Source: Ignavibacteriales bacterium
Lineage (GTDB): Bacteria; Bacteroidota; Ignavibacteria; UBA10030
Length of the DNA: 64,000 bases
NCBI GenBank assembly: GCA_026390595.1
Contig: JAPLFQ010000005.1
Span: 186,001-250,000, forward strand
Direction of reading: 5' to 3'
Below are positions 5,123 through 23,872 of this stretch, piece by piece. Below the pieces are notes generated by a model that did no database searches, had not been told where the DNA came from, and saw only the letters and a list, made by a program, of their open reading frames with translations. The position numbers and the translations under genes were made by a program. Each line of letters opens with the position of its first letter. Positions within the stretch are counted from its first letter, which is position 1.

Positions 5123-5646
5123 CGTAGCGTTCTCCTGTAGAGCGGGTTGTTGGGCCTATTGTGCGGCACAGAGCCGCGAGACAGCGGGAATCGGTGAAGA
5201 TTGTTGGGAGATCGGTAAATCCTTGTTGCGTAAGACGCGGAACCGGGAGTGCGTCGACTTCGGTGCATTGGGTGGATCTGCTGACTCCGCATCTCAAAGC
5301 TACTGCAGTTCAGATTGAAAGGCAACTGAATGCGTCACATTGTAGTACTGGAGCTCTACAAGAAATATCGGCGCGCGGCGCACTCTTATTTGAAACTCTC
5401 TGTCTAATTCGGTACCATAAGGAGGTTGTCTCGGTTTCTCCGCGGGACTCGCTCAGCACCAAAATACCCGCATCAGTTTAGCGGATTGTTGAAAAACTAA
5501 CCGCGAAGGCCGCCAAGAAAAGAATGAGTGTTGATTCTATTCCAAAAACATTGACTTTGCGTCTCTCTGCGGTCTTGGCGGTTTGATTCTGTCACTTGAA
5601 ATATGAATTTCAACAACCCGCTAGAGGTCCCAACACAAGGATTTTC
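5123..5646. promoter_or_regulatory. Divergent spacer between rhaT and deoC
   Basis: This 524-base gap separates leftward rhaT from rightward deoC, so it must hold both promoters. I see no credible gene in it. Its right part contains the inverted-repeat element listed separately. The deoC ribosome site AAGGA lies at 5637-5641. Confidence 0.4.
5510..5581. repeat. Inverted-repeat intergenic element
   Basis: CCGCCAAGA at 5510-5518 is matched by its exact complement TCTTGGCGG at 5573-5581, enclosing about 54 bases. The flanks (AACCGC on the left, CTTTGCGTCTCTCTGCGG on the right) resemble the cgcaaag/gcgtctttgcgg type of dispersed intergenic repeat found in many environmental genomes. Only one copy is visible here, so dispersal cannot be shown. 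Confidence 0.4.
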
Positions 5647-6711
5647 ATGCCAAAGAAACGATTGCCAACACGATCTGTGTCTGTACGGAAACGACCAGCC
5701 GTCGCGGTCTCACAAAATCGCTCCGGACCTGCGGCCCGCCGGACACAAACCCATGGAATACACACCAATACGCCGGTACCGTTCGATCCCGGGCTCGTCC
5801 AATCGCTCCGCGTCAACCGGAGCGCTGTGGAAGCGAGGGCTATCGAACTTGGAACCCGCCGCACATTCAAGGTTGAGGCACAGGTCGCGGCGTACCTCTC
5901 CGCCATCCGCTGTATCGATCTCACAACTCTCGCCGGGGATGATACTCCTGGCAGGGTTACTCGCCTGTGCATGAAAGCGCTTGTTCCTTTGGAACGCGAG
6001 ATTATTGCGGCCCTGGGACTCAAAGAACACATCACAACTGCCGCCGTCTGTGTGTATCCAGCGCAGGTACAAACAGCCGCTCAGTGTCTCGCCGGCCGCC
6101 TTCCTGTCGCGTCTGTTGCAACCGGTTTTCCTTCAGGCCAAACATTCATGAGGGTAAAACTTATCGAGATTGATCTTGCCATCAAAGCGGGCGCAACCGA
6201 AATCGATGTTGTCATCAGCCGCGAAAAGGTGCTCACCGGAAAGTGGAAATCGCTCTACGACGAAATTGTTGCCTATCGTGAGGTCTGCGGGACAAGGGCG
6301 AAACTGAAGACAATCCTTGGTGTCGGAAACCTGGAAACGCTCAGCAATATTGCCGCGGCTTCCGCTGTCGCGATCATGGCTGGATCGGATACGATCAAGA
6401 CTTCAACCGGCTTCGAACCGACGAATGCAGCACTCCCGAGCGGCCTTGTGATGGTCCGTCAAATTCGCAGGTTTATGGATCTCGGCGTGCTCCGTGGCCG
6501 CCGTGTGGGTTTTAAGCCGGCCGGAGGAATTCGATCCGCAAAAGACTCCATGCTCTGGCTTACCCTCATGCTGGAGGAGTTGGGAATCGCGTGGACAAAA
6601 CCTGACCTCTTCCGCATCGGTGCAAGCGGATTGCTTACAGACATCGAACGACAGCTTAGACATCTGGCGTTCGGACGATATTCGAACGCTCAGTACCATC
6701 CAATGGCTTGA
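5647..6711 (+). CDS. deoC: Deoxyribose-phosphate aldolase
   Basis: DeoC cleaves 2-deoxyribose 5-phosphate to glyceraldehyde 3-phosphate and acetaldehyde in the cytoplasm. The 354-aa form resembles the longer animal-type DERA rather than the roughly 220-250-aa bacterial form: TTAAVCVYPAQV, SVATGFPSGQT, TEIDVVIS and GFKPAGGIRSAKDS are all present. The Schiff-base lysine lies in AGSDTIKTSTG (near residue 249). The start used has AAGGA five bases upstream; an in-frame upstream ATG would add 17 residues. The first 60 residues are basic and rich in Arg/Ser, and are probably a flexible tail. Its stop overlaps the start of the ALDH16-type gene, which could oxidise the acetaldehyde released. Confidence 0.93.
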   Translation: MPKKRLPTRSVSVRKRPAVAVSQNRSGPAARRTQTHGIHTNTPVPFDPGLVQSLRVNRSAVEARAIELGTRRTFKVEAQVAAYLSAIRCIDLTTLAGDDTPGRVTRLCMKALVPLEREIIAALGLKEHITTAAVCVYPAQVQTAAQCLAGRLPVASVATGFPSGQTFMRVKLIEIDLAIKAGATEIDVVISREKVLTGKWKSLYDEIVAYREVCGTRAKLKTILGVGNLETLSNIAAASAVAIMAGSDTIKTSTGFEPTNAALPSGLVMVRQIRRFMDLGVLRGRRVGFKPAGGIRSAKDSMLWLTLMLEELGIAWTKPDLFRIGASGLLTDIERQLRHLAFGRYSNAQYHPMA

Positions 6712-9143
6712 TGAACCAAACCCGAGATAATACAATGGATAAGAATAAACTCGCTTCACTTCTTGACAACCTCGACTACGGATCGGCGCCGGAACAGGAA
6801 AGTAAGACCCGGGAATGGCTGAAAAATCATGGGTCGAAGTTTTGTCACTCCATTAACGGCGCATGGCGGCCTCCCGAAAAAGGGGGCTACTTCAAGACCA
6901 TCAATCCGGCGAAGAGCGACGAGGTGCTTGCCGAGATTGCGATGGGTACACAAGAAGACGTTAACGCTGCTATTCATGCTGCGAAGGCGGCTTTCCCCGC
7001 GTGGAGCGCTCTCTCCGGACACAAGCGTGCGCGCTATCTCTATGCCATTGCGCGCGCGGTCGCAAAGCACGGCCGTATTTTCGCGGTCCTGGAATCGCTC
7101 GACAACGGAAAACCAATCCGCGAGACAAGAGATATTGACGTCCCGGTCGTCATCCGGCATTTTTATTACCACGCCGGCTGGGCCCAGACGATGGAACACG
7201 AGTTCCCCGGCTATCGTCCCGGCGGTGTTGTTGCGCAGATTATTCCGTGGAATTTTCCTTTTCTTATGCTCGCCTGGAAGATTGCCCCCGCAATCGCTGC
7301 CGGCAACACGGTCGTCCTCAAACCGTCAAAATCCACGCCCCTTACAGCCCTCCTGCTGGCCGATATTCTGATGAACGAGGTGAAGCTTCCTCCGGGCGTC
7401 GTGAATATACTCACCGGGGATTCGAAAACCGGAACCATGTTGTACGAGCACCCGGTTCCGTGGAAGGTGACTTTTACGGGTTCAACTGAAGTCGGTCGCA
7501 TTATCCGAAAGGGAACCGCTGGCTCGCGCAAACACCTTACGATGGAATTAGGCGGCAAGTCGCCATTTATCGTCTTCGAGAACGCCGACCTGGACTCGGC
7601 TGTTGAGGGTGTTGTCAATGGAATCTGGTTTAACGAGGGTCAGGTCTGCTGCGCGGGATCGCGGCTTCTTGTGCAGGAGGGAATCCACGACGACTTCATT
7701 AAGCGCCTCAAGCGCCGTATGAGCAGGTTGCGCGTCGGCAATCCCCTGGACAAGACCGTCGACATGGGGGCGATCAATAACGCTGAGCAACTGAAAAAGA
7801 TTACGGAAATGATGGAGGTCGGAAAAAAAGAGGGGGCGACGATGTGGCAGCCGGACAATGTCGTCTGTCCGAAGGGGGGCTATTTCTTGCCGCCGACGCT
7901 ATTTACAAACGTGGAGCCCTCGCATACGATAGCGCAGGAAGAAATTTTTGGTCCGGTTCTGGTGACCCTGACATTCCGGACGCCGGCCGAGGCTGTGCAG
8001 CTCGGAAATAACACGCGCTATGGTCTGGCGGCTTCAATCTGGTCGCAGGATATTGATACGGCAATGGACGTTGCCCGCAAAATCAGAGCCGGGACCGTTT
8101 GGATCAATTCCACAAATCTTTTCGACGCCGCAGCTGGTTTTGGTGGATACAAGGAGAGTGGTTATGGTCGCGAAGGCGGCCGCGAGGGAATGTACGATGT
8201 GCTGGTGGAGGCAGACCATGGCCAACAGAAAATTAGCGAACCCGCATCCTCCCAACCACCAATTAACCAATTAACCATTCACCAATTAACTCTTTCGAGC
8301 CCCACCATCGACCGCACATTCCGGTTTCTGATTGGCGGCAAGCTAGCCCGCCCGGATCAGGCTGGAAGTTATTCGGTGACATCTCCGTCGGGTCAACTGC
8401 TTGCCGTCGTCGGCGAGGCAAACAGAAAAGATGTCCGTAACGCTGTCGAAGCCGCGCGAACTGCGTTTCCGTCATGGTTTGACTCTGCTGCCCACCTCCG
8501 CGCACAGATCCTGTATTTTTGGGCTGAGAACCTCTCCGTCGAGAAGGAGCGTTTTGCCGACGGGATCGCAGCTCAAACGGGTTGTTCTATAGAAACAGCA
8601 AACATCGAGGTGGAACAGGCCATCAGCCGGCTTTTCGACTTCGCAGCGTATGCTGATAAGTTTGGCGGCATGGTTCAACCGGTTCTAGGCAGAAGACTTG
8701 TCGTCGGCTTGCGCGAGCCAATCGGTGTTGTCGGTATGCGGGCTTCCGACAATTCGCCGTTGCTTGGCTTGATCTCCGTACTCGCTCCGGCGGTTGCCAT
8801 GGCAAACACTGCGGTCGCGATCGCGGGTAAGCATGCTATAACGGCAATGGACCTGGTTCAGATTATTCAACACTCCGATGTCCCCGCCGGCGTTATCAAT
8901 CTGCTCACAGCCCAGAATCCCGACGTTGTCGCCAAAGTCCTTGCTGAGCATGAAGACGTTGATGCCATCTGGTCGTTCGGCGGTTCTGAAAGCGGAAAGG
9001 CGATTGAAGAGGCCTCGACAGGAAACATGAAGCAGACATGGGTTACAAATGGCGGTCAGGTCGACTGGGCAACGATGAAGAGCGAAAAACTCCTGCTCAA
9101 ATCCACACAGGTCAAGAACATCTGGGTGCCGTACGGAGTGTGA
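6711..9143 (+). CDS. ALDH16-type double-domain aldehyde dehydrogenase
   Basis: The 810-aa protein has two aldehyde dehydrogenase units in tandem, as in the ALDH16 family. Unit one (about 40-510) is complete, with the NAD-site strand IIPWNFPFLML, glutamate in TMELGGKSP (near 277) and catalytic Cys in GQVCCAGSR (near 312). Unit two (about 531-810) keeps a coenzyme-domain pattern but ends before any catalytic Cys, as expected for the structural second domain. Bacterial ALDH16 members retain activity in the first domain, unlike the mammalian protein. The start overlaps the deoC stop (TGATG); an ATG at 6735 is an alternative. The linker is encoded by a short CCAATTAAC repeat. It likely oxidises acetaldehyde from DeoC to acetate. 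Confidence 0.88.
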   Translation: MNQTRDNTMDKNKLASLLDNLDYGSAPEQESKTREWLKNHGSKFCHSINGAWRPPEKGGYFKTINPAKSDEVLAEIAMGTQEDVNAAIHAAKAAFPAWSALSGHKRARYLYAIARAVAKHGRIFAVLESLDNGKPIRETRDIDVPVVIRHFYYHAGWAQTMEHEFPGYRPGGVVAQIIPWNFPFLMLAWKIAPAIAAGNTVVLKPSKSTPLTALLLADILMNEVKLPPGVVNILTGDSKTGTMLYEHPVPWKVTFTGSTEVGRIIRKGTAGSRKHLTMELGGKSPFIVFENADLDSAVEGVVNGIWFNEGQVCCAGSRLLVQEGIHDDFIKRLKRRMSRLRVGNPLDKTVDMGAINNAEQLKKITEMMEVGKKEGATMWQPDNVVCPKGGYFLPPTLFTNVEPSHTIAQEEIFGPVLVTLTFRTPAEAVQLGNNTRYGLAASIWSQDIDTAMDVARKIRAGTVWINSTNLFDAAAGFGGYKESGYGREGGREGMYDVLVEADHGQQKISEPASSQPPINQLTIHQLTLSSPTIDRTFRFLIGGKLARPDQAGSYSVTSPSGQLLAVVGEANRKDVRNAVEAARTAFPSWFDSAAHLRAQILYFWAENLSVEKERFADGIAAQTGCSIETANIEVEQAISRLFDFAAYADKFGGMVQPVLGRRLVVGLREPIGVVGMRASDNSPLLGLISVLAPAVAMANTAVAIAGKHAITAMDLVQIIQHSDVPAGVINLLTAQNPDVVAKVLAEHEDVDAIWSFGGSESGKAIEEASTGNMKQTWVTNGGQVDWATMKSEKLLLKSTQVKNIWVPYGV

Positions 9144-9173
9144 TCCGGGTTTTTGTCGGCCAGCTATAGACTG

Positions 9174-9210
9174 GAAAACCCCAGACAGACATGTGCTGTT
9201 TGGGGTTTTC
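9174..9210. terminator. Bidirectional terminator between convergent genes
   Basis: GAAAACCCCAGACA (9174-9187) pairs with TGTTTGGGGTTTTC (9197-9210) with one mismatch across a nine-base loop. It lies between the convergent ALDH16-type gene and the aminotransferase/PEPC-like gene, and its arms supply a T-rich end in each direction. Confidence 0.75.
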
Positions 9211-9243
9211 TGTTGTTTGCAGATCGTGATCTTACACGACGTT

Positions 9244-12200
9244 TTACCCGTTCTCTCCCGCGAGCCGTGCAATCTGCAGCATGTAGAACCGCAGAAGCTG
9301 TTGCTTTTCAGGGGAGAGGGCCTGCTCTTCGATCTTTGCTATCTTTTCGACCTCTTTCAGCGACCGGACGATCGCAACCGGCACCTCGACCATCCCTTCT
9401 GAGATTGCTCCGAGATAGTTCAACGCCGAAGCAAGGAACTGACGCATATCGTCCGTCGGGTTGGAGGCGGTGAAGAAGTGCGAAAGCTCTGATGATAATT
9501 TCATAGCCCGAAGAGTCCTGGAGTCGTTTTTCAGCGGCTGATTGAGGGAAAGCGTGTTCAACGCAACCGCAAGTTCAACGAAACTTTGAACGCGCTGCAT
9601 GATCGGGTTTTCAAGAAGGTCCCAGATCTTCGCACGCCACGAGCGGATATCCCCCGGTACAGCAAGAAGGCTATCGACGTCCTTCTGCCATTGCTCGTCT
9701 GTTGATCCGCGCGTTCCGCCGGACAGTTTTTCTGCGTCGGTATTGAAAAGGTCTCCCTGCAGCAGCACGGCCAGGTCGGGCCGGAGTGTGGGGAGAAGTT
9801 CCCTTATAAACGTCCCGTTCTCAAAAAAATCATTCACGTCGAGCCCGTGCCTTCGCAACAGTTCCTGCTGTAAAAGTCCGACGTACCGGGGAAGACTATC
9901 GTTGTCTTCTCTGAGAGCGAGAAACGCCGATATCCCGGCCGGGAACGCTGGTTCAATCCGCTTGAGGAACGTGAGCTCCGGATCGTGATAAATCCTCAGT
10001 GTGTGAAGCATCTCGTATACGGGAAGGTTGGGTAGCAGCCGGTCGGCAATCAACGACCGCGAATCCCCCTCTTTGAATTCAAGCTGTCGGAATCTATCCA
10101 GGGCCCGGAAGAGCCCCGTCGTGAGCTGGTTCAAACCAAGCACTGCTGTTTGTGCCTGGTTGTGTGCTATCGCTCGCAGCCGGCTCCCGTGCCGCGAGAG
10201 CGGTATGATTTTCGCGATTCGTTCCAGAATGCGCTGGCCGCGCTCGCTACCCGCTCCGGTTGTTGGCCGAATGGTGGGCCTGTCGCGGAGCTGCGGCATT
10301 GTTCGGGCGATGAAGTAGGAGATAATGTGAACACCGACCACATCTTCTTCTCTCCCGTAGAGAATCTGCCGGAAATCTTCCGTCAGCAGGGTGATGAATT
10401 GATCGTAGACGGCGTCCCTGGTTCCCACTGTCAGGCGCTCAAGCTCCTGCGCGCCCCGTTTCTTTTGTTGCAACCGACTTTCGACGAGCGACTCTGCAGC
10501 GCGTATCAAATCATTCCGGTGTCTGCGCTGCGATTCGCGCATGTGGTAGTGAACATTCGCGCTTTCTTCAACGGGGAGGTAGCGGAGTTGTTCCGATATG
10601 GTGCTCTGAAGTGTTCGAAGGTCACCACTGGTGAAGATTCCCATGAGTGGAGTTGTTGCGTACTCCGTGCTTTTCCGCGCTGCCGCCGGAAGGTGCGACG
10701 CAATAAGCTGCCGCGCAGATGGCGATTTCACAAACGCTGGCTCGCCCGACACGCCCGCATAGTATCCGCCCTGCCGTTGCATTGGCTCACCACTTCCCAG
10801 TTTGATTCTGACCCGCTCAATTACTTGGTGTTCTGCCAGCCAGAGAATCGTCGCGTGCTTTGCCTGCCGGTAGAGCGCGGCTCCGGCCGCCTGACCCACT
10901 TGTTGGCTGAGATCTGAACCCGCAATGAACACCTCCGAGATCACCTCGGCAAACCGGTCGGCGGTTTCCTGGTTTACGCGGCGGCTCTGAAGCGCATAGT
11001 CCCAGATTTTTGTCAGATACGATGGAATAGACCGGACCGACTCAAGGTCCTCGAAAAGCGGAATAAGCTGGATGACGGGCAGCTCAAGGCCGGGGTTGTT
11101 TCTCAGCACCTGTTCCCGCCGCGCGCGCAGCTTCCGGTCCACCGTGATCAGGGCTTCCGCCTGCGTTGACATGCTGACCTGCAGGGCAAGAATAATCCCC
11201 GGGGTGCCGTACTTCGCCGCTATTTCATTGATCTCGTATATGTTGTGAACGGTCGTATCGATCGCAAACGAGTCTTGCGCCGTGATCATCGCTTGATCAA
11301 TGCGCGGCGTAATAACCATGCGTCGCAGCAGATCGCGGTAGAATGACGCTTCCCCCAACACTTCGTCGTTGCCGATGTTCTGCTGTATCGCCGCAATAAG
11401 GGCGAACAGCTGTTTTCGGAGCTTCTTATTAAGGGAGAAGTAATACTCCAGCGTTTCCCGGCGTTGAATACGAAGGTCCACCATCTTCCGTTCCAACCGG
11501 TCATTGTGCTGCCACAGCAGCGTCAGCGGATCCCGCGCGAGCCGAAGCTTCATCCCCACGTTGCGCACGGCTCCGGCGCGAACGCTGAACGGCAGAATCC
11601 CGCGATATCTTTTTTCCAGTTGGTGCGTCAGGTCGGTAATGTCGTTTAACAGCTTTGTAAATCGCCGATTGTGTTCCGCCAACGTTTGTAATTCGGCGGC
11701 AAGTTCCGGATCAATCCGAACGGCTTTGTCGGCACTCAACAGAACCGAAAGGAGTTTCGCAAGATGGCGTACGTTTTCGATGAGCACTGACGCGACCAGC
11801 CGGTGTCCTTGACCTGAGGGGCGATTACTTCCGTCCCAATCACCCCAGAAGGACATGATCTGAGGTTGCGTCGTGCCGACCCGCAGTAACGCGGCGCTCT
11901 CTGCGGCAATCATCGATCGAAGATCCAGGATAAGCTCATCTGATTCCTCGCTGGAGGTAATCGCGACATTCATGCCGAGATATTCTTCCAGCAGATATTG
12001 CGCCGCCTGGTCCACGCTCGACGGAGAAATCAATTCTTCGCGGACAAGTTTCGCAATAATATCTTCGAAGCAGCGCTCGGTCTGAATCGAGTACATCTGA
12101 GTCGGGTGCACTGTTCGATCGCTGGCGCGCTGCCGAAACCTTCGGTCGCGACGCTCAAGAGAATCCTTGTAAAGTTCCTGCTCAAGCCGCCGGACCATTG

Positions 12201-14856
12201 TTTTTCCTGCATTTGCGCGCGCTTCTTGAATAAGCTGGTCGCTCTCGAAAAACCGATCCATACCACGTTGCTTGAAAACGATGAGCCGCTGCACTGCATA
12301 GCCGTCGGAGAACCGCTGCTCCGAACCTGTTGCACGGAATTGCCCGTACTGTCGCAGGCTGATTCGCCGGCATGCGGTGAGCACCCGCTGTTCAACGTCG
12401 TTCCACCGATCCCCGTATCCACCCTGCCGCTTCTCGCTTGTGGTTGTGTGTTCGGGCAAAAGGGCGGGGTAGAGACGGTTATACCGTGCCGATTCTTCTG
12501 CAATAAGCCTGTTCAGGTCAATAAGAACGCGCCGCGTTTTCTTAAGGAGTATTTCTGCTCCGTCAGCTCCGCCAAGCGTAAGGCGAAAGGTCTTGCGACC
12601 TGTGTCGAAGCCGTGCTCCGTACGTGCAAACGTCGAGAGCGGCAGCATCCCGATCCCCTGGCGCGCAAGTCCCGAGGCCAGCCAGTCGAGCGATAATCCT
12701 GATGGTAGCTGGTGAACCACGAGCAGCGGGTAGAGGCTTCCGGCCGGGGGAAGAATGTCGATTTCAAAAGGATTGCGGTCCCGCGGAAGGCTTTTCACTG
12801 CCTCGAGGAGCGCGTCGGTACGTTCGCGGAGAATGTGGTTGCGCAGGCGCCAATAAGACCGAGCGATTTCCGTCTCGCTGCGATAGAAGAGGTATGTAAG
12901 AGCTATCGCACCGAGATTCGGTCGGATGTGATGGTGCATCTGGACAAAGCGACGATGAAGTTCGCGGTGTCGGATCTCAACAACCGCCAGGCGCGCGCCC
13001 GCCAGCGAGTCCGTTTTGGAAACAGAGTGGACGGTAACAACCTTTGCCGTCTGCTCCCGGACCAGCCTTCCCCCGGCAACGAGTTCGTCTGCAAGCTGGC
13101 GCACCGTCTTGATGTGCGGCAGCGTGTCGGCGGGGGCAACCTCCTGATACGACAGATCGTCAATAACCCACACGCCATGGTCGAGCAGCCAGCCGAGGAG
13201 TCTCTTGATTTCACCTTCATGAAAGATCCGGCCGGTCGCGTTGTGCGGATTATTGAGAACCACCGCTCCGTATTCATTCCAGCGCTCATCAGCGGAAAGC
13301 TGTTTCCGAACGGAGCCGATCATTGCATCCACGTCGAGGGCAAAGGATGGCGTAAGCGGAACCGGGTGCACCACCGGAAAACAGTGTTCATAACTCCAGC
13401 TCAGGTCCGGCACCACGACTTCGCGAATCCCGCAATGGAATCCAAGCAGGCCGAGGGCGCTCCTTGAAGAACCGCTCACCACAACGCTTCGGGATATTTC
13501 GTACTCGGGGTGGTGTTTCAGAAACGCACGAAGGAAGCTTTGTTCCAGCTCCCTCTGCCACTCCGGCGAATCTACCTTTCTTACCAGTTCGCCGAGAAAC
13601 GCACCGGCATCCATCTCCGCGAACGCGTCAAGAGGAGCAAGCGAGCGAACGTCTTCCGCCCTGTCGGCGATCTTGTTTAACGTTCCGCTTATCCGGTCAA
13701 TCCGGTTTTCTACCTTCTCAGACAGCTTTGTTATGTACGTATCAAGGCGTTCGTCCAGCAGCCGCGCAAAGGTGGAAAATGCGTCGGTTGAACGATCTCC
13801 TTGGAAGATGGGCTGATAGGAGGGTTCAACAATAATTTCGTTTGTTGGATGGCTCGCTGCCTGCGCCGTCTCCCTGTTCTCGAGAAGATAGGAAAGAAGT
13901 TCGATCTCAGAAGCCGAGGGGGTTCCCTTTAACTGAAAATGTGTTGATTCGAAAACTGCGAGAATGTCCGCGTTACCAGCCAGGAATACGGTCGCCAGCT
14001 CGCGGAAGCGGTTCTGGAAGATGGCTGGCGTAAGAATTCGCACAACCCGTTGTGTTAGTTTCGCTTCTCGCGCAAGAGAGAGGTGGTTCGGCGCATCGTT
14101 GGCTTCGATGAACAAGAGCGGTAATTCGAGGCTTGTCTGGCGCAGCGACCGTCGCGCCTCCTCTCCAAGAACCGAACCCATGATGAGTAGTGTCGGTGTC
14201 TGTGGAAATTGAACAAAGTGATTACCGAGCAGGCCGAGCGCATGCTGTTCGTCGTCAGGGAGTTGTGTGAACGCGAGTCCGCGATACGCCTGTTCGTCAA
14301 CAACTTTCCTGGCGTGGTGCAGAAAGACATGGAGGGGCTGTTCCACAAGGAATGACGAAAGGGCATGGAAGAGTACCCGGAGCGCCTCTTCGACACCGCC
14401 CGTCGCGAGGATGATCTCGCGCCTTCCCGAAGTTTGCCCAAGGTCGTACGACAATGGTTCGGGTTGACTCTGAAGCCATTCGGAAAGAACTTTTACGGGG
14501 TTGTTCGGATTGTTGCGCGCAAAGCCGCCCCGGGGTGTGTAGGGCGCGCTCTTGTGGATAAGATTGCGGAGAAACGACAGCTTTGGTTCGTTCTGTTCGT
14601 CCCATTCAAGATATTTCAGGATTTCTTCGGTGTTTGCGTCCGACAGGTCCTCGCGCCGTATGTCGATGCCGAGGACAATCCGCAGGTATGCGGAGGCGAG
14701 CCGTTCGTCCTGAATGGGGTTGCCGATGTGAAAGTTGACGCGCTCTTCCGGCGCCGCTGACGAGGAGGCTGTCGTTTCGCTGATTTCCGAAACCCTGGCG
14801 GCCTTGAGCGGCTTGAGCCTAAACAAGGATAGGGGATCCCTGGAGTGTGTGTGCAT
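9244..14856 (-). CDS. Giant aminotransferase-like / PEP carboxylase-like two-module protein
   Basis: This 1870-aa protein joins two enzyme-like halves. Residues about 420-790 carry the fold-type I PLP aminotransferase set: NNPHNATG (near 538), the pyridine-binding Asp in VIDDLSYQE (near 565), the Schiff-base Lys in HSVSKTDS (near 612) and a late Arg in FRLTLGG (near 758). Residues 40-400 look like a further degenerate aminotransferase-type segment (FHIGNPIQD). From about 870 onward the sequence follows PEP carboxylase: TVHPTQ (near 917, cf. AHPTE/Q), PLFEDLES (near 1267, cf. PLFET) and AGSDLSQQ (near 1315, cf. GYSDSAKD). The FHGRGG motif is replaced by GSGEPMQRQGG (near 1357), so carboxylase activity is doubtful. 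An oxaloacetate-to-aspartate coupling or a regulatory role is inference. The frame is uninterrupted. Confidence 0.8.
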   Translation of the reverse strand: MHTHSRDPLSLFRLKPLKAARVSEISETTASSSAAPEERVNFHIGNPIQDERLASAYLRIVLGIDIRREDLSDANTEEILKYLEWDEQNEPKLSFLRNLIHKSAPYTPRGGFARNNPNNPVKVLSEWLQSQPEPLSYDLGQTSGRREIILATGGVEEALRVLFHALSSFLVEQPLHVFLHHARKVVDEQAYRGLAFTQLPDDEQHALGLLGNHFVQFPQTPTLLIMGSVLGEEARRSLRQTSLELPLLFIEANDAPNHLSLAREAKLTQRVVRILTPAIFQNRFRELATVFLAGNADILAVFESTHFQLKGTPSASEIELLSYLLENRETAQAASHPTNEIIVEPSYQPIFQGDRSTDAFSTFARLLDERLDTYITKLSEKVENRIDRISGTLNKIADRAEDVRSLAPLDAFAEMDAGAFLGELVRKVDSPEWQRELEQSFLRAFLKHHPEYEISRSVVVSGSSRSALGLLGFHCGIREVVVPDLSWSYEHCFPVVHPVPLTPSFALDVDAMIGSVRKQLSADERWNEYGAVVLNNPHNATGRIFHEGEIKRLLGWLLDHGVWVIDDLSYQEVAPADTLPHIKTVRQLADELVAGGRLVREQTAKVVTVHSVSKTDSLAGARLAVVEIRHRELHRRFVQMHHHIRPNLGAIALTYLFYRSETEIARSYWRLRNHILRERTDALLEAVKSLPRDRNPFEIDILPPAGSLYPLLVVHQLPSGLSLDWLASGLARQGIGMLPLSTFARTEHGFDTGRKTFRLTLGGADGAEILLKKTRRVLIDLNRLIAEESARYNRLYPALLPEHTTTSEKRQGGYGDRWNDVEQRVLTACRRISLRQYGQFRATGSEQRFSDGYAVQRLIVFKQRGMDRFFESDQLIQEARANAGKTMVRRLEQELYKDSLERRDRRFRQRASDRTVHPTQMYSIQTERCFEDIIAKLVREELISPSSVDQAAQYLLEEYLGMNVAITSSEESDELILDLRSMIAAESAALLRVGTTQPQIMSFWGDWDGSNRPSGQGHRLVASVLIENVRHLAKLLSVLLSADKAVRIDPELAAELQTLAEHNRRFTKLLNDITDLTHQLEKRYRGILPFSVRAGAVRNVGMKLRLARDPLTLLWQHNDRLERKMVDLRIQRRETLEYYFSLNKKLRKQLFALIAAIQQNIGNDEVLGEASFYRDLLRRMVITPRIDQAMITAQDSFAIDTTVHNIYEINEIAAKYGTPGIILALQVSMSTQAEALITVDRKLRARREQVLRNNPGLELPVIQLIPLFEDLESVRSIPSYLTKIWDYALQSRRVNQETADRFAEVISEVFIAGSDLSQQVGQAAGAALYRQAKHATILWLAEHQVIERVRIKLGSGEPMQRQGGYYAGVSGEPAFVKSPSARQLIASHLPAAARKSTEYATTPLMGIFTSGDLRTLQSTISEQLRYLPVEESANVHYHMRESQRRHRNDLIRAAESLVESRLQQKKRGAQELERLTVGTRDAVYDQFITLLTEDFRQILYGREEDVVGVHIISYFIARTMPQLRDRPTIRPTTGAGSERGQRILERIAKIIPLSRHGSRLRAIAHNQAQTAVLGLNQLTTGLFRALDRFRQLEFKEGDSRSLIADRLLPNLPVYEMLHTLRIYHDPELTFLKRIEPAFPAGISAFLALREDNDSLPRYVGLLQQELLRRHGLDVNDFFENGTFIRELLPTLRPDLAVLLQGDLFNTDAEKLSGGTRGSTDEQWQKDVDSLLAVPGDIRSWRAKIWDLLENPIMQRVQSFVELAVALNTLSLNQPLKNDSRTLRAMKLSSELSHFFTASNPTDDMRQFLASALNYLGAISEGMVEVPVAIVRSLKEVEKIAKIEEQALSPEKQQLLRFYMLQIARLAGENG

Positions 14857-14901
14857 GGAGTGCGCGTGACTCCCCCGTGAGGGGAGGCCCCGGTTAGTGA
14901 G

Positions 14902-15891
14902 TTATTCGACGGGGCGCTTTGGTTTTACCTTTTTCGCTTCCGTTCGATAGGATTCGATGGCGCTCAGAAGGATCTTCTGCAGGGTCCCCAACAACTCGGA
15001 TCCATGTGACAGGTCCTGTGGAGAAAGTGATACGATGGTGCGCGCGTTTTTCAATCCCTGGCTTGCCTCTGCCAAGCGCGCTGCTTGCGGGGTGAGCATG
15101 AGAAGCTCCGGACTGCTCCTGAGAACATCCAGTTCTTCTTTGTCCAGCTCGAGTTTCTTGCGGCTCTGCTTGAGTTCCTCGTCGACGCGGATGTTCAAGA
15201 GCGACGACTCACGCTCCAGTTGGCTCTTTTTCAGGCTGTGCTTTTTCAACTCCAGTTCGTGTTCCAGGAGTGCTATTTCTTCGTCCGCTTTCAGCTTCGC
15301 TTTTGCTGTCGCGACGCGTGCCTGCTGGTTCAATTCTTCTGTCTGCTTGAGAATCCGGGCATGTTCCTGTTGTCGCAGGGCTTCCGAGATCTGCGGGTTG
15401 ACGGGCTCGAAAGCAAGAAGCGTCAACGAGATTACTTCCAGACCAAACGAGGTTATGGTGACCGACGTTTTCTGCTTCAGGTGTTCAAGAATCTTCTCCG
15501 ACGAGAGCTCCTCGATGCCGAGCTGTTCAGTGTAGGTTTTCACTATTCCCAGAAGAAGCGCTTCGAGGTCTTTCGCGGCGCGGGCAACGGCGTCGCCGTT
15601 CCATCCTCCCACACGGATAAGGGCCGCAAGGTTCGCGGGGCTGGCGGCTACGGTGAGTCCAAGCTTTACTCTGATTTCGAGGTTGCCTTTGGCGGTGGCG
15701 TCAACGGTTAGCTGCAGTGAGTGGGTCGTGCGCCGGATCGGCAGGCTGAAGTGCCGGGGATAGAGTCGGCCCTTTCTGGATGCAAGGCCGGCTTTGTCCT
15801 CATAGACAATGAGGTAGTCGGATTTTCTGAAACGATACTCGAAAAGGATGGCAAACAGCACCAGAACGAGGAAACCCGCAACGAACTCCAT
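14902..15891 (-). CDS. SPFH/band-7 domain membrane protein
   Basis: The 329-aa protein has one N-terminal membrane span (MEFVAGFLVLVLFAILFEY), a basic stop, then an SPFH/band-7-like domain (about 25-170, including VKTYTEQLGIEELSSEKI and LEVISLTLLAFEPVNPQI). A long charged helix (about 175-255) with heptad character suits coiled-coil assembly, and the tail is lysine-rich. Stomatin/flotillin-type proteins form ring-like scaffolds on the inner membrane and often regulate proteases or channels. AAGGAG sits six bases before the start codon. It lies 45 bases upstream of the giant aminotransferase/PEPC-like gene on the same strand, so co-transcription is likely. No NfeD partner is present. Confidence 0.75.
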   Translation of the reverse strand: MEFVAGFLVLVLFAILFEYRFRKSDYLIVYEDKAGLASRKGRLYPRHFSLPIRRTTHSLQLTVDATAKGNLEIRVKLGLTVAASPANLAALIRVGGWNGDAVARAAKDLEALLLGIVKTYTEQLGIEELSSEKILEHLKQKTSVTITSFGLEVISLTLLAFEPVNPQISEALRQQEHARILKQTEELNQQARVATAKAKLKADEEIALLEHELELKKHSLKKSQLERESSLLNIRVDEELKQSRKKLELDKEELDVLRSSPELLMLTPQAARLAEASQGLKNARTIVSLSPQDLSHGSELLGTLQKILLSAIESYRTEAKKVKPKRPVE

Positions 15892-16024: not shown

Positions 16025-18649
16025 TTATTTCGATTTCTTCTTTTTCTTCTGCGCTTTTTTGCTGCCCGACTCCTTCTTGGCTTCCACCTTGGCCGCCGGG
16101 GTTTTCCGCTCTTCCTTGATGTTTGCCTTGACTGGTTTTGTCGGCGCCGGACCGGACTTACCATCCTTCATCCCGTTTGTTTTCTTCTCCAGCTCCTTCT
16201 CCGCGAGCCGTTTCTCTTCTTCCTCCTCTGCCATAACAATCGCAACATCGGCAACCGTGTCGCCCTCATGCAGCCGGATCAACCGCACCCCTTGTGTGTT
16301 GCGTCCCGCAACGCGGATATCCGATGCATGCTGGCGGATAACCATGCCGTTGGTCGTCACGACCACCACGTCGTCGGTATCAACCGCCTCTTTGATCGCA
16401 ACCATGATCCCGGTCTTTTCTGACGTCTTCACGGTAATAATCCCCTTCCCTCCGCGGTGGCTGACGCGGTATTCCTCTTCCTCGCTTCGCTTCCCATACC
16501 CGTTCTTGGTTGCGACGAGAATTGTGATCCCTTTTCTCCGGAGGTTCACAGCGCCGACGACTTTGTCTTTCTTTCCCAGGTTGATGCCGCGAACACCCGC
16601 GGCGCTTCGACCCATTGGCCGCACTTCTTCCTCGTGGAACCGTATTGCAATGCCTTCCTTGGTTCCGATAATGATGTCTTGTTTTCCGTCTGTGAGTTTC
16701 GCGTCTTTCAGTAAGTCGTCCTTCTTCAGCGTCATTGCCGCAATACCGCTCTTCCGCGGATTGCTGAACTCGGAGAGAAGGACCTTCTTCACAAGTCCGG
16801 CTTCTGTGACCATGAAGACGTAATGCTGGTCATCAAATTCCTTCACTGTTATAAAGGCGCTGATCGTTTCCTCTGAGCCCTTTGACAGCAGGGAGTTGAT
16901 CGACTTCCCTTTCGCCGTCCGGCCTCCTTCGGGGATCTCAAAGACCTTCAGCCAGTAACACCGGCCGGCGTTTGTGAAGAAGAGGATGTAGTTGTGTGTG
17001 CTGGCGACAAACATGTGCGCCACAAAATCATCTTCTTTTGTCGCCGCCCCCGTAACCCCTTTGCCGCCGCGCGATTGCCGCCGGTAGCCGGAGACCGGAA
17101 ACCTCTTGATCAATCCCTGGTGGCTGATGGTGATCACGACCTCTTCTTCAGCAATCATGTCCTCGATGCTGAACTCTTCAGCCTTGTAGACGATTTCGGT
17201 CCGGCGCTCATCGCCGTACTTTTCTTTCACCGTGATCAGTTCGTCTTCGATGATCTTCAGCTGCAGCTGCTTGCTCTTCAGGATCGCCTTGAGCTTCTCA
17301 ATCAGCTTGATCGTTTCCCGGTACTCGTCTTCAACTTTCTTTCGTTCCAGGCCGGTCAACTTCTGCAGCCGCATGTCCAGAATGGCTTTTGCCTGAATCT
17401 CGGACAGCTTGAACTTCTTCATCAACCCGAGCTTTGCGGCCTCGACGTCCTTCGATTGCTTGATCAGCCTGATGATCGCATCGATGTTGTCGAGGGCAAT
17501 AATGTATCCCTCGAGAATATGCGCCCGTTTTTCTGCTTCATCCAACTCGAACTTCGACCGGCGGACAACGACAACGTTTCGATGTTCGACAAATTTCTGG
17601 ATCATCTCTTTCAGCGTCAGCACGCGGGGGCGGCCCTCCACGAGCGACAACATGATGATGCCGAACGTGGTCTGCATCTGCGTGTGCATATACAGGTTGT
17701 TGAGCACAACCTCCGCGTTCGCGTCCCGCCGCAGCTCGATGACCATGCGCATGCCGTCGCGATCGGATTCATCGCGCACGTCGGCAATATCTTCGATCTT
17801 CTTGTCGTTCACGAGATCTGCGATTTTTTCGATCAGCGAGGCTTTGTTCACCATGTAGGGAAGTTCGGAGACGATGATGCGCTGCCGGTCTCCTTTGCCC
17901 GTCTCGATGCTCGCGCGTGCGCGCACAAGAATGCGCCCTCGTCCCGTTGTGTACGCGTCCCGTACGCCATCGTACCCGTAGATGATACCACCCGTCGGGA
18001 AGTCCGGAGCAACGATGTGCTTCATCAGCTGCGCGTTGGTAATCTCCGCGTCTTTGATGAAGGCAAGACATCCGTCAATAACCTCGTTCAGGTTGTGCGG
18101 CGGAATGTTTGTGGCCATGCCGACAGCGATACCGCTGGCGCCGTTACAGAGGAGGTTCGGAAAAAGAGCCGGGAGGACTGAGGGCTCTTTGAGTGTATCG
18201 TCAAAATTTGGCGTGAAATCGACCGTGTTCTTTTCCAGGTCGCGCAGCATCTCTTCGGCAATCTTCGCAAGGCGCGCCTCCGTATACCGCATCGCCGCGG
18301 CCGAGTCCCCGTCCACAGAACCAAAGTTGCCCTGCCCGTCCACGAGCGGATAGCGCAGGGAAAAGTCCTGCACCATGCGCACCATGCTGTCGTACACCGC
18401 CGAGTCGCCGTGCGGGTGATACTTGCCAAGCACCTCACCAACGATGCGCGCGCTTTTCTTGTACGCCCGGCTGCTTGCAAGGCCAAGGTCTTGCATCCCA
18501 AAAAGCACGCGACGGTGAACCGGTTTCAGGCCGTCGCGCACGTCGGGCAGCGCCCGCGCAACGATCACCGACATCGAATAGTCGATGTAGGAGCCCTTCA
18601 TTTCTTCTTCGATGTCAACCGGTATAATCTTCTCGTTCAGATTCGCCAT
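16025..18649 (-). CDS. gyrA: DNA gyrase subunit A
   Basis: GyrA is the DNA-cleaving and DNA-wrapping subunit of gyrase, which introduces negative supercoils using GyrB-hydrolysed ATP. The active-site tyrosine is Tyr122 in AMRYTEARL. The quinolone pocket reads [10 protein letters not shown] with Ser83 and Asp87, which is the unmutated susceptible-type pattern. The GyrA box needed for wrapping is present as QSRGGKG in the C-terminal domain, which supports gyrase rather than topoisomerase IV. At 874 aa it is normal length. The last 60 residues are extremely rich in Lys, Glu and Ala, beyond the usual acidic tail. It follows gyrB by 46 bases. Confidence 0.97.
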
Positions 18650-18695
18650 TCGTATTCCCGTTTAGAGCTGTGTAATATCCGAATTGTCTGGTGCT

Positions 18696-21068
<2,373 letters not shown>

Positions 21069-21097
<29 letters not shown>

Positions 21098-22220
21098 ACT
21101 CAACCGTTCCTTTGCTCACCAAGAACCGCCGGTTTGCCCCCGTCCAATCGAACGCGGGAGGAAAAACGCTTTCGCTTGTCGTCGTGATGAACGCCTGGCC
21201 GACCGATCCGGTCAGCGCCAGAAGTCTTTCGGATCTGTGGTGATCAAGCTCCGTGAAAACATCGTCGAGCAAGAGAATTGGCCGCTCGTTCCGTTTTGCC
21301 TGAAGGTAGACGAACTCTGCAATCTTCAGGGCAATCAGGAATGTTTTGTGCTGTCCCTGCGATGCGTGTGACCGAACGCTCAGAGTGTTGATTGCAAGAT
21401 CGAGTTCATCCCTGTGCGGTCCGACCAGCGTGATTCCGAGCCGCTTTTCCTCAGATGCTTTGGCCCTCAACGTTTGCTGAAAGAGACTTTTCAGCTCCTC
21501 TTCGGACGCCCCGTCTTCATGTGTTACCGATGGCTGATACTGTATCGCGGGCTGCTCAATCCTGCCTGCGATCTGGCTGTACGATTCATGGACAATGGGC
21601 TGAAGCTCTTTGAGAAACAGGCTGCGTCGGTGAGTGATCCGCGCTCCGCTGTCGACCAATTCCTGATCCCAGGGCTCGATCACATCCGCATAGTCTATTC
21701 GGCGCACCTTGCTGTCAAACAACACTCTGTTTCGCTGCCGCAGCACCCGGCGGTATTCGAGCAGGTCTTCCAGATACACCTTGCTCGCCTGCGCAATCAC
21801 AAAGTCCAGAAATCGCCGCCGATCTGCCGGCCCCCCGCTTGTAATCGCTCCCGATTCCGGCGACAAGACTACGACCGGAAACTGTCCCACGACTTCCGAG
21901 AACTTCTCCACGGGCGCTTTGTTGATCAGAAATCTCTTTTCCCCGGACTCGTGATCGTAGGAGACTGCTATGTGATACCGCAATCCCGAATCCGTTTCCA
22001 GTTCACCGCTGGCGTTGAACCGCGATGCCCCAACCCGAAGAACCACGCCGTCGGCGCTGCCAAAGAAACTTTTCGTCAGACACAGGTACGAGATGGCTTC
22101 GAGGAGGTTGGTCTTCCCCTCGCCATTTCTACCAAGAACCGCATTGATCCCCTCTCCGAAGACTACGTCGGTATGAGTGTGGTTGCGGAAATTCTGTGCG
22201 TGGAGTTCGCGGATCTTCAC
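21069..22220 (-). CDS. recF: DNA replication and repair protein RecF
   Basis: RecF is an SMC-like ATPase that, with RecO and RecR, loads RecA at single-strand gaps. The 383-aa protein has Walker A GRNGEGKTNLLEAI (near 30-43), the ABC-type signature region (SQGQHKTFLIALKIAEF), and Walker B ILLLDDVFTELDHHRSERL. The start MKIRELHAQNFRN is typical. It lies between dnaN and the DUF721 gene. A 92-base gap to dnaN holds a strong hairpin without a T-tract. Confidence 0.96.
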
Positions 22221-22246
22221 ATTCTCTGATGGCGCTTACAATGCGA

Positions 22247-22278
22247 TAGCCCCGCTCCCGCGTTGCGGGATGGGGCTA
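22247..22278. repeat. Strong stem-loop between dnaN and recF
   Basis: TAGCCCC (22247-22253) pairs with GGGGCTA (22272-22278), and the inner segments CCCGC/GCGGG also pair. No T-run follows on either strand, so it is more likely an RNA-processing or attenuating hairpin, or a REP-like palindrome, than a full terminator. Confidence 0.45.
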
Positions 22279-22312
22279 CCTTCACAAATTCACCCAACCC
22301 AACGGCATAGTC

Positions 22313-23428
22313 TTATGTGTTCAGCCGCATGGGCATGACAAGCATGAGCAGGTCCTCGTTCGGTTTTTGGTGTGCCGGCGTTATAATTGCGGCCCGAACG
22401 GCCGTGCCCAGCTTGAATTCTGCTTCCTCGCCGTCAAGGTGTGAAAGAATATCGATGAGATACGTCGAGTTGAAACCTATCTCCAATTCCTCCCCGTTGT
22501 AGTCGCACGGGACCTTTTCTTTTGCCTCTCCCCCGAAATCAATGTCTTCCGCCATCACGCGCAGTTCGTTCTTCCGAAGCGAACAACGAACCTGGTGTGT
22601 GGTCGAACTTGAATACAACGCCACGCGGCGGACGGCTGCAAGAAGAAGATCTCTCGCTACAACAAGTTTTTTGTCGTTGTCAAGAGGTATAACGGATTCA
22701 TAGTTGGGATAACCCTCCTCTATTACTCGCGATGTCAGCGTGGTTGTTCCAAAAGTGAACTGAACGTGCGTTGCGTCGACGGCAATGGTATTGGTCTCGC
22801 TGTCGACAGACCGAGAAACGAGATTGAGGGCTTTTGCGGGGACAATTATATCCCACTTCACTTTTGGCTGCTTCAGGCCGGTATATTGAATTCGAACAAG
22901 CCGGTGTCCGTCGGTGGAAACGGTTCGCAGATCTCCGTCTTTTACCTGCATCAGTATTCCTGTCATAGCAGGCCGCAATTCATCGGTGCTGACGGCAAAC
23001 AAGGTACGGTGAATCATGCTTTTTAGCATTTCACCGCTCAGTGTTATTTTATCTTCACCCTTTACCTGCGGAATGGTAGGAAATTCTTCGCTTGATTCTC
23101 CCATCAGAACATATTCACCCATCTCGGTAATCATCTTCACCTTGTTGGATGACATATCTGCATTAAACACAAGTTGTATATCCGGCAAGGCTCGGATGGT
23201 TTCCATCAATCGTTTGGCCGGTACCGCAATTGATCCCTCTTCATTCCCTTTTACATCAAGGGAAGCAGACATAGATACTTCAAGATCCGTTGCTACAAGT
23301 TGCAGCACATTTTTGGAAAGCCTGAATAATATATTTTCTAGTATTGGGAGTGTCGATTTCGACGGAACAACGCCACTGACCTTAGCCAGTGCCTTTTGTA
23401 GTTCATTACTTGCAACGGTGAATTTCAT
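22313..23428 (-). CDS. dnaN: DNA polymerase III beta sliding clamp
   Basis: DnaN forms the ring-shaped clamp that tethers polymerase III to DNA. The 371-aa product has the usual three-fold repeat and the features MKFTVASNELQKALAKV, VPSKSTLPILENILF and the C-terminal VMPMRL. The start is fixed by AAGGAG six bases upstream; a longer frame with ten more residues is not needed. An inverted repeat AAATACC/GGTATTT (23477-23500) about 50 bases upstream could be an operator or promoter element. Confidence 0.97.
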   Translation of the reverse strand: MKFTVASNELQKALAKVSGVVPSKSTLPILENILFRLSKNVLQLVATDLEVSMSASLDVKGNEEGSIAVPAKRLMETIRALPDIQLVFNADMSSNKVKMITEMGEYVLMGESSEEFPTIPQVKGEDKITLSGEMLKSMIHRTLFAVSTDELRPAMTGILMQVKDGDLRTVSTDGHRLVRIQYTGLKQPKVKWDIIVPAKALNLVSRSVDSETNTIAVDATHVQFTFGTTTLTSRVIEEGYPNYESVIPLDNDKKLVVARDLLLAAVRRVALYSSSTTHQVRCSLRKNELRVMAEDIDFGGEAKEKVPCDYNGEELEIGFNSTYLIDILSHLDGEEAEFKLGTAVRAAIITPAHQKPNEDLLMLVMPMRLNT

Positions 23429-23872
23429 TCCTATCTCCTTCTTTGGCGAGATGGGCAATTGGGCATTGATAGGGAAAAATACCTAAAAATTTGGGTATTT
23501 ACAAACGAAGATTGGGAATTACACAAGAGTTGTTATATCTAATAGTAATAATATAAGGAAGATATAAGATAAGACTTATAATAAGGCTGTTGATACTGTT
23601 AATAACTATTTATGTAAATATTAAAACCAAGCGTTACAACTTAAAACCGGATTATTGGAGTTAGTAAAAGTGTTAGTAAAGTGTTGATGGTTACCCCTCA
23701 TATTAACAATCAAACGAGAAACTGAAGAGAGTCCCCTCTTTTGTTTTTTTATAAACAATTCACGAACAGTTATCCACGCGGTTTGTCCGGAGATATGAAC
23801 AAAACCGACAGCCGGGCAAACAAAGAGAGGCTAGGGAATACAAGGTATATTGAAGCAAGTGAAGAGAGGGGT
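23429..23872. other. AT-rich spacer between dnaN and dnaA (candidate origin part)
   Basis: This 444-base gap is much more AT-rich than its neighbours, especially 23500-23700, which has long TA-rich runs suited to unwinding. It contains a DnaA-box match TTATCCACG (23770-23778) and looser relatives such as TGTTGATAC near 23590. The small rightward frame from 23741 runs antisense into dnaA and is not credible. With the spacer on the other side of dnaA this could be a two-part oriC. Confidence 0.55.

Follow-up and report, generated by a model that had tools for sequence, protein, structure and literature searches.

A conserved aminotransferase fusion with a PEP-carboxylase-like half, paired with an SPFH-like gene in Ignavibacteria, suggests an undescribed enzyme

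PEP carboxylases (PEPCs), of the bacterial/plant and archaeal types, are viewed as a single-reaction family, and the usual aminotransferases are dimers or larger assemblies of chains of about 400 aa. A passage of PMC10176493 describes how PEPC holds Mg with one Glu and one Asp; a passage of PMC9309667 assigns PLP-site roles in aminotransferases to Lys, Asp, Arg, Asn and Tyr, and gives Y65 as the Tyr that a second subunit contributes at the PLP phosphate. The gene described here, from a window of 64,000 nucleotides (the whole stretch of DNA that was analysed) of an Ignavibacteriales bacterium, places relatives of both enzymes in one chain, and its conservation suggests an undescribed enzyme instead of the familiar carbon-fixing one. 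An earlier note on this DNA knew of no description of such a joint architecture; among the matches listed for open-access PMC full text, none describes an aminotransferase-PEPC fusion of this kind and none pairs an SPFH protein with one.

The fusion gene lies on the minus strand (9244..14856), where the frame 14856-9244 starts with ATG and runs through 1870 codons to its stop without internal stops; the 1870-aa frame was read as uninterrupted from the start, and its product is matched at 100% in its own genome. Relatives occur patchily, in 56 of the 391 genomes of the class. In 43 of these 56 carriers, which span several families, the fusion is recovered as a single match without stops that begins no later than residue 13 and runs to residue 1870, while the other 13 give split or truncated matches, with fragments on separate contigs, in adjacent frames of one contig or starting at contig ends. 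The broken matches are what could be expected if two genes had been joined in assembly or if the frame had arisen by chance, but the 43 intact carriers rule out an assembly join, a question raised at the outset, and we give an artefact of either kind a negligible chance. Invariance is counted throughout in an alignment of 34 family members, the window protein included.

Residues 405-795 (12472..13644, minus strand) are, as judged from sequence, a fold-type I PLP aminotransferase domain with intact catalytic residues and predicted activity. Pfam Aminotran_1_2 matches the domain at E 1.2e-16, residues 432-746 align with canonical aminotransferases (hhalign E 1.1e-21), Foldseek recovers the aminotransferase fold at E 7.5e-16, and the N half of the fusion matches it by VIA with Z up to 31.1 (rmsd 3.0 Å, 376 residues aligned). 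The PLP motifs previously spotted in the frame are all there and in order: NNPHNATG (535-542), VIDDLS (564-569), HSVSKTDS with K614, and the late Arg, R758. K614 (codon 13015..13017, minus strand), the expected Schiff-base lysine, pairs in hhalign with its canonical counterpart, as do D567, N539, Y570, R622 and W487; each of these six and R758 is invariant in 34/34 members. R758, the candidate Arg for the alpha-carboxylate of the substrate, is outside the hhalign block and was assigned by motif, FRLTL resembling LRLSY.

Residues 358-403 (13648..13785, minus strand) are predicted by AF2, at low confidence (block pLDDT 36-74), to form a long single helix, a linker and possible coiled coil. Further towards the N-terminus, residues 20-330 (13867..14799, minus strand) are probably a second aminotransferase copy, degenerate and covering the N-arm and the large domain, a reading that draws on hhalign and on AF2 secondary structure. 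Against 12 canonical aminotransferases, the region aligns colinearly with an hhalign score of 33.1, which none of 100 block-shuffles reached (maximum 25.2), at an hhalign probability of 14-18%. An isoleucine stands opposite the PLP lysine and the PLP aspartate position falls in a gap. By VIA, the aminotransferase fold match covers model residues 6 to 786. GNP 45-47, Y106 and K310 are invariant in the region, and Y106 (34/34) lies in a motif resembling the second-subunit Tyr motif, outside the hhalign block. Pfam and PDB sequence searches with residues 20-330 gave no aminotransferase match, and hhalign directly against the fusion's own aminotransferase domain was not significant (E 0.11). A degenerate copy lacking the PLP lysine points to an intrachain pseudo-dimer.

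The C-terminal half, residues 830-1870 (9247..12369, minus strand), is predicted to adopt the PEPC fold. All 29 Foldseek matches at E <= 0.001 are PEPCs, counting 3zge and 3zgb, whose titles do not name the enzyme and which we take to be PEPCs. By VIA, the 23 listed PEPC entries score Z 14.3-17.0, whereas no other entry in the list exceeds 12.2; the match to 3odm_C (Z 17.0, rmsd 4.0 Å, 17% identity) aligns 488/530 residues and that to 1jqn (Z 14.3, rmsd 5.5 Å) aligns 648, with model residues 6-1040 on chain residues 63-882. The AF2 model is only fair (pLDDT 77.7), the replaced loop described below (model 526-531) falling under 50. HPTQ, PLFED and AGSDLSQQ occur in PEPC motif order, as had been proposed, with GSGEPMQRQGG next in line, and the half aligns to PEPC both by fold and by profile: the block of PLFED, SDLSQQ and GSGEPMQRQGG matches canonical PEPCs in profile-profile comparison at E 1.8e-4 (probability 48%), reaches a score of 46.0 that none of 60 block-shuffles attained (maximum 41.6), and yields identical residue pairs in four hhalign settings. 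The match of the HPTQ/SFWGDWDG block is weak (hhalign E 0.007). Against PF00311 the C half reaches 18.7 bits, under the Pfam gathering score of 22.4, and PF00311 matches at E <= 1 only two of the 34 family C-halves; the archaeal-type PF14010 matches only one of the 34, weakly (E 0.068); hmmsearch of PDB sequences with the C-half profile gave no chain at E <= 1; and global hhalign of the C half with PEPC gave no usable alignment. Computation shows these predicted folds for the two halves, together with the invariance of their pockets.

The pocket of this half is conserved in an altered form. E. coli PEPC residue numbers (138, 396, 506, 543, 546, 579, 581, 587, 699 and 713) are used here as we take them to stand, and the motifs that follow are all on the minus strand. 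HPTQ 917-920 (12097..12108) corresponds to PEPC HPTE, with H917 as the His138 equivalent (pairing at hhalign E 0.007), and SFWGDWDGSNRPSGQGH at 1002-1018 (11803..11853) matches the FGSWIGGDRDG region by hhalign. PLFED 1266-1270 (11047..11061) and AGSDLSQQ 1312-1319 (10900..10923) hold the expected Mg ligands, E1269 for Glu506 and D1315 for Asp543, both paired by hhalign. H917, E1269 and D1315 are invariant in 34/34 members. GSGEPMQRQGG 1354-1364 (10765..10797) stands in place of PEPC GRGGTVGRGGG, with S1355 at Arg581, R1361 at Arg587 and residue 1353 (Leu/Met) at His579, as hhalign pairs and the family alignment show; S1355, E1357 and R1361 are again invariant in 34/34. The loss of the FHGRGG loop, already noticed in the single sequence, extends to the family (0/34, against 8/8 control PEPCs), and two PEPC signature patterns, in the form we presume to be theirs, are likewise found in none of the 34 members, against 7/8 and 8/8 controls. 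The equivalents of K546, H579 and R581 are all replaced, two of them by invariant residues, Q1318 and S1355, so this is not a canonical PEPC. Further matches are candidates: LRAI 1560-1563 (10168..10179; Arg 34/34) for LRAIPW with Arg713, the pairing of R1526 and R1561 with R699 and R713 being weak (hhalign E 0.07-0.09), and R1185 for R396, matched by eye and left unpaired by hhalign. Nine of the ten catalytic-equivalent positions inspected, partly picked for conservation, are invariant (34/34), against 206 of 1041 columns overall. Judging by this alignment, the pocket is constrained, invariant instead of eroded.

The architecture first described, an aminotransferase joined to a PEPC-fold part, stands, but it overlooked both the N-terminal copy and the adjoining gene. 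Directly upstream of the fusion gene lies a gene for a 329-aa SPFH/Band_7-like protein (14902..15891, minus strand), whose N-terminal hydrophobic stretch was picked out by eye from the partner alignment. It adjoins the fusion gene in 22/22 loci inspected (19 directly, and three, G097, G014 and G398, by coordinates) and is present in 54 of the 56 carriers, the fusion gene being cut by a contig end in both exceptions. The two genes form a unit. Band_7 is found at E <= 0.01 in 13 of 18 partners (best 3.2e-8), and the window's own partner scores 18.2 bits, under the cut-off of 23.6. NCBIfam gave nothing for the partner; a single sequence match to a designed protein in the PDB (E 0.0085) was judged to be chance. 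Putative membrane tethering is read from the gene adjacency and from this sub-cut-off Band_7 score.

The PEPC-like half is found in 15 of 395 genomes of the phylum, all of them fusion carriers; an exact-peptide scan of genome contigs, with peptides of one sequence, returned two loci and is too insensitive to show absence outside the phylum. The fusion tree shares 9/24 splits with the gyrA tree, with several supported conflicts, and the two-gene unit sits in changing surroundings between genomes. The pair has in part moved horizontally. The C half had no match in phages or plasmids; viral contigs gave 20 pattern matches, and not one was confirmed. Canonical PEPC is present in 11/56 carriers and 71/335 non-carriers (Fisher p 0.86); the two do not exclude each other, and this independence indicates that the fusion is no plain replacement for canonical PEPC. 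The window's own genome has no canonical PEPC above cut-off and no archaeal-type match, and encodes an ATP-type PEPCK (E 1e-211). Among the proteins of neighbouring genes, the best 25 of the 102 PADLOC families matched include DpdF, PsyrT, BrxH, DruE and SduA.

We tentatively propose, with rather less than even confidence, that the pair makes a membrane-tethered two-site enzyme, a transaminase combined with a re-purposed PEPC-fold Mg-enolate enzyme whose reaction and substrates are putative. The SPFH-like partner would hold the fusion, a presumed cytosolic protein with two active sites, on the inner side of the membrane. Site 1 would be a PLP aminotransferase within one chain, in which the dead copy (20-330) supplies what is otherwise the second subunit for the live copy (405-795). 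Site 2 would lie in a TIM barrel of the PEPC fold. There the Mg2+ ligands and the HPT histidine are retained, but residues that PEPC uses on the phosphate of PEP and on bicarbonate are gone; the chemistry of this site would most likely be of the Mg-enolate type (making or breaking of a C-C bond, or decarboxylation) and not PEP carboxylation. Its substrate would be a 2-oxo acid made or used by site 1, and a hand-over between the two sites is conceivable.

A different role for the PEPC-like half would be that of a catalytically dead module, which senses a ligand or acts as a scaffold to regulate or position the aminotransferase. The three replaced residues of the catalytic loop and phosphate site, the absence of both signature patterns and the score below the Pfam gathering threshold all fit such a module, and the earlier note had likewise considered a sensor built from a degenerated carboxylase. 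It was right about the loop, but across the 34 aligned members the pocket is constant: both Mg ligands, the HPT histidine, the R587-aligned arginine, S1355 and E1357 are kept in each. As a non-catalytic ligand site could stay conserved too, this conservation is not decisive, and we regard a dead module as unlikely, though deserving of real weight. The other function suggested at first was aspartate channelling, in which the C half is a working PEPC with an altered loop and the aminotransferase turns its oxaloacetate into aspartate. Such a fusion is chemically sensible, the PEPC fold extends across nearly the whole C half, and the genome at hand shows neither a canonical PEPC above cut-off nor an archaeal-type match. 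The proposal is not borne out, since the equivalents of K546, H579 and R581 are gone and canonical PEPC is neither replaced nor avoided in carriers; the PEPCK offers this genome another PEP/oxaloacetate route as well. We consider channelling improbable.

The partner gene brings in a further alternative, a mobile defence or envelope-stress module with the SPFH-like protein as membrane sensor and the fusion as effector. The patchy occurrence, the changing surroundings and the conflicts with the gyrA tree would suit a mobile module; in B. subtilis, according to a passage of PMC8581546, an SPFH protein is linked to the phage-shock complex, and near the fusion PspC domains occur in 3 of 81 neighbouring proteins, while neighbours match 102 PADLOC families at E <= 1e-5. 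However, neither the fusion nor its partner matched PADLOC at E <= 1, no PADLOC family occurs in more than 2 of the 81 neighbours (raw count, among the best 25 of the 102 families), and the C half had no match in phages or plasmids and no confirmed one in viral contigs. A defence role seems to us slightly more doubtful than channelling. Returning to the two-site enzyme, it is possible, if a little less assured than the enzyme itself, that it represents an undescribed class, in which a PEPC-fold enzyme with another Mg-enolate reaction, a single-chain pseudo-dimeric aminotransferase and an SPFH scaffold make up a transferable two-gene metabolic module.

If this is true, a fold that keeps its metal site and histidine while its bicarbonate/phosphate loop is swapped would have been re-used for other chemistry. 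The aminotransferase pseudo-dimer would offer a testable case for enzymes that lose the need of a second subunit, and the pairing of an SPFH-like protein with a soluble metabolic enzyme a testable case for SPFH proteins organising metabolism. Compared with class I/fold-type I aminotransferases (LysN 2egy, T. maritima AspAT 2gb3, ACC synthase 1b8g), the domain at 405-795 has the fold and the PLP-site residues in common; unlike them, it forms part of a chain of 1870 aa and follows what is probably another, degenerate aminotransferase copy. With bacterial/plant PEPC (PF00311; 1jqn, 6mgi) the C half shares the predicted overall fold, the order of the HPT, PLFE and SD motifs and the Mg ligands, but identity across the structural alignment is 12%, FHGRGG is gone, the K546, H579 and R581 equivalents are replaced and the half is fused behind an aminotransferase. 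The archaeal-type PEPC (PF14010; 3odm), with Z 17.0 to the C half, ties with the plant enzymes and is half as long as the C half of the fusion. The partner resembles SPFH proteins (stomatin, flotillin, HflK/C; PF01145) in its N-terminal hydrophobic stretch, SPFH-like middle and charged tail, and the partners are set apart from them by a well conserved C-terminal motif, SPELLMLTPQAARLAEASQ.

The 1870-aa frame claimed in the earlier note was confirmed and runs on the minus strand (14856 to 9244); the same stretch read on the plus strand is full of stops. The fusion is not an assembly join, as a single stop-free match that begins no later than residue 13 and reaches residue 1870 is present in 43 of the 56 carriers (genomes with fusion relatives), the match being cut or split in the remaining 13. 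These carriers come from 391 sampled genomes of the class, with identities of ~45-77% in full-length matches. Among 296 genomes sampled across the phylum, all 12 strong matches fell within the same class, the others being weak and nearly all to the aminotransferase part, and a C-terminal half profile matched 15 of 395 phylum genomes, 15/15 also fusion carriers. Pfam recognised a sole domain, aminotransferase class I/II (residues 444-761, E 1.2e-16); among the best 25 of 31 families, NCBIfam gave weak partial aminotransferase matches far under their cut-offs. No description of an aminotransferase-PEP carboxylase (PEPC) fusion was found among the matches listed from open-access full text, a coverage outside which most subscription journals lie.

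Over residues 432-746 the protein aligns to 12 canonical aminotransferases (E 1.1e-21), and K614, D567, N539, Y570, R622 and W487 pair with their counterparts and are invariant in 34/34 aligned family members (roles of the PLP-site residues from PMC9309667). R758, also invariant (34/34), lies outside the aligned block and was assigned by motif. A good AF2 model of residues 1-810 (pLDDT 86.5, pTM 0.84) resembles fold-type I enzymes by Foldseek (E 7.5e-16) and VIA (Z 31.1, rmsd 3.0 Å, 376 aligned). Because the VIA match spans model residues 6-786 (end points only given), the model suggests that the far N-terminus supplies the N-terminal arm of the live fold.

In hhalign, residues 149-315 align colinearly with canonical aminotransferase residues 94-272 (E 0.002, against E 0.1 or more for five unrelated pairs), at a score of 33.1 reached by 0/100 block-shuffles and a probability of just 14-18%. 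This probable N-terminal copy gave no significant hhalign match to the fusion's own aminotransferase domain (E 0.11) and no aminotransferase match in Pfam and PDB sequences. Isoleucine 279 occupies its PLP lysine position and a gap its PLP aspartate position. Y106 and K310 are invariant in the fusion family, and we infer that their motifs are those through which, in normal dimers, one subunit contributes residues to its partner. Residues 20-330 and the live aminotransferase likely form an intrachain pseudo-dimer in which the N-terminal copy would be dead.

The partner gene (15891-14902, minus), encoding an SPFH-like protein of 329 aa, is the immediate upstream neighbour of the fusion gene, in the same orientation. 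It adjoins the fusion in 22/22 loci inspected (3 established from match coordinates), with gaps of -1 to 124 nt in 19 loci; the next most common neighbour family reaches at most 6/22. A partner profile matched 31/245 class genomes, 30 of the 31 being carriers; in the sole non-carrier (G423) 19 bases separate the partner from the start of its contig, and it is on this side that the fusion would be expected. Another 24 of the 26 other carriers encode it, making 54/56 overall, and in the two carriers lacking a match (G612 and G481) the fusion match starts at most 9 bases from the contig start. Band_7 is matched by 13/18 partners at E <= 0.01, the window's own scoring under the cut-off. A C-terminal motif, SPELLMLTPQAARLAEASQ-LKNARTVVSL (residues ~260-289), shows little variation among 18 aligned partners, falls outside the SPFH part and is a candidate docking site for the fusion. 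The 45-nt gap between the two genes (14857-14901) holds a GC-rich inverted repeat seen by eye (CTCCCC...GGGGAG). In G340:C26, one TAG lies inside the partner match and the same frame then continues into the fusion (2206 aa if read through).

The fusion tree shares 9/24 splits with the gyrA tree (27 genomes), and the distances correlate at 0.53 (Spearman). Well-supported conflicts include the grouping of one family-5 genome with one of family-8 (0.989) and that of two from family-5 with family-15 (1.0); inheritance has thus been partly vertical and partly by transfer between families. The upstream stretch 16025-23458 holds gyrA, gyrB, recF and a probable dnaN (by-eye naming), so the pair looks to be located in the origin region in this genome; in other carriers with a gyrA match, gyrA is not adjacent. 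Convergent with the fusion gene is a gene (6708-9143, plus) whose 811-aa product contains two aldehyde dehydrogenase stretches; it is adjoined by a gene that by eye resembles deoC (5596-6711). Between the convergent genes, a 17-pair hairpin followed by T-rich sequence (9172-9212) is a candidate terminator, such sites being no more frequent across the region than in shuffled sequence. The 81 neighbour proteins scanned are a mix of ordinary genes. That the pair is a defence or envelope-stress module seems improbable, and no PADLOC family recurs in more than 2/81 neighbours.

The likeness of the C-terminal half to PEPC held in both profile and fold comparisons. The sequence signal is weak but exceeds chance, with an hhalign E of 1.8e-4 at a probability of 48% and a score higher than all 60 shuffles; hmmsearch of PDB sequences gave no match. 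For residues 830-1870 AF2 gave a fair model (pLDDT 77.7, pTM 0.78; below 50 in the replaced loop), and each of the 29 Foldseek matches with E <= 0.001 is a PEPC (the best at 2.9e-9), counting 3zge and 3zgb, which we take to be PEPCs, the enzyme being absent from their titles. VIA aligned the model with archaeal-type 3odm_C (Z 17.0, rmsd 4.0 Å, 488 aligned), plant PEPC 6mgi_A (Z 16.9, 5.6 Å, 643 aligned) and E. coli 1jqn (Z 14.3, 5.5 Å, 648 aligned, with model residues 6-1040 covering chain residues 63-882); the top-scoring non-PEPC among the 50 entries listed reached Z 12.2. In its own genome, which encodes an ATP-type PEPCK, this gene is the only match to PF00311, a weak one (18.7 bits vs a cut-off of 22.4). 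A role as stand-in for PEPC was rejected, canonical PEPC above cut-off occurring in 11/56 carriers vs 71/335 non-carriers (Fisher p 0.86).

Residue pairing with PEPC was identical across four hhalign settings. E1269 and D1315 match the metal-ligand Glu and Asp, and R1361 pairs with R587; Q1318 stands in place of K546 and S1355 in place of R581, all five invariant (34/34), and residue 1353 (11 Leu, 23 Met) replaces H579, in what we take to be the PEPC numbering. H917 corresponds to the HPT histidine (hhalign E 0.007), R1526 and R1561 are possible equivalents of R699 and R713 (E 0.07-0.09), and R1185, left unpaired by hhalign, is a by-eye candidate for R396. According to PMC10176493, PEPC binds Mg through one Glu and one Asp, and a conserved histidine in a loop acts on carboxyphosphate. 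A true PEPC channelling its product to aspartate, one option of the earlier note, seems improbable with the loop so changed. A role of the C-terminal half as a sensor, the other option, or as a scaffold is unlikely, and by its residues the pocket is altered, not eroded. Our preferred, still tentative reading is a membrane-associated enzyme with two sites: the first would be a transaminase, and the second a PEPC-fold Mg-enolate enzyme that would act on a 2-oxo acid. Compared with PEPC, the C-terminal half has retained the metal site and exchanged the anion loop.
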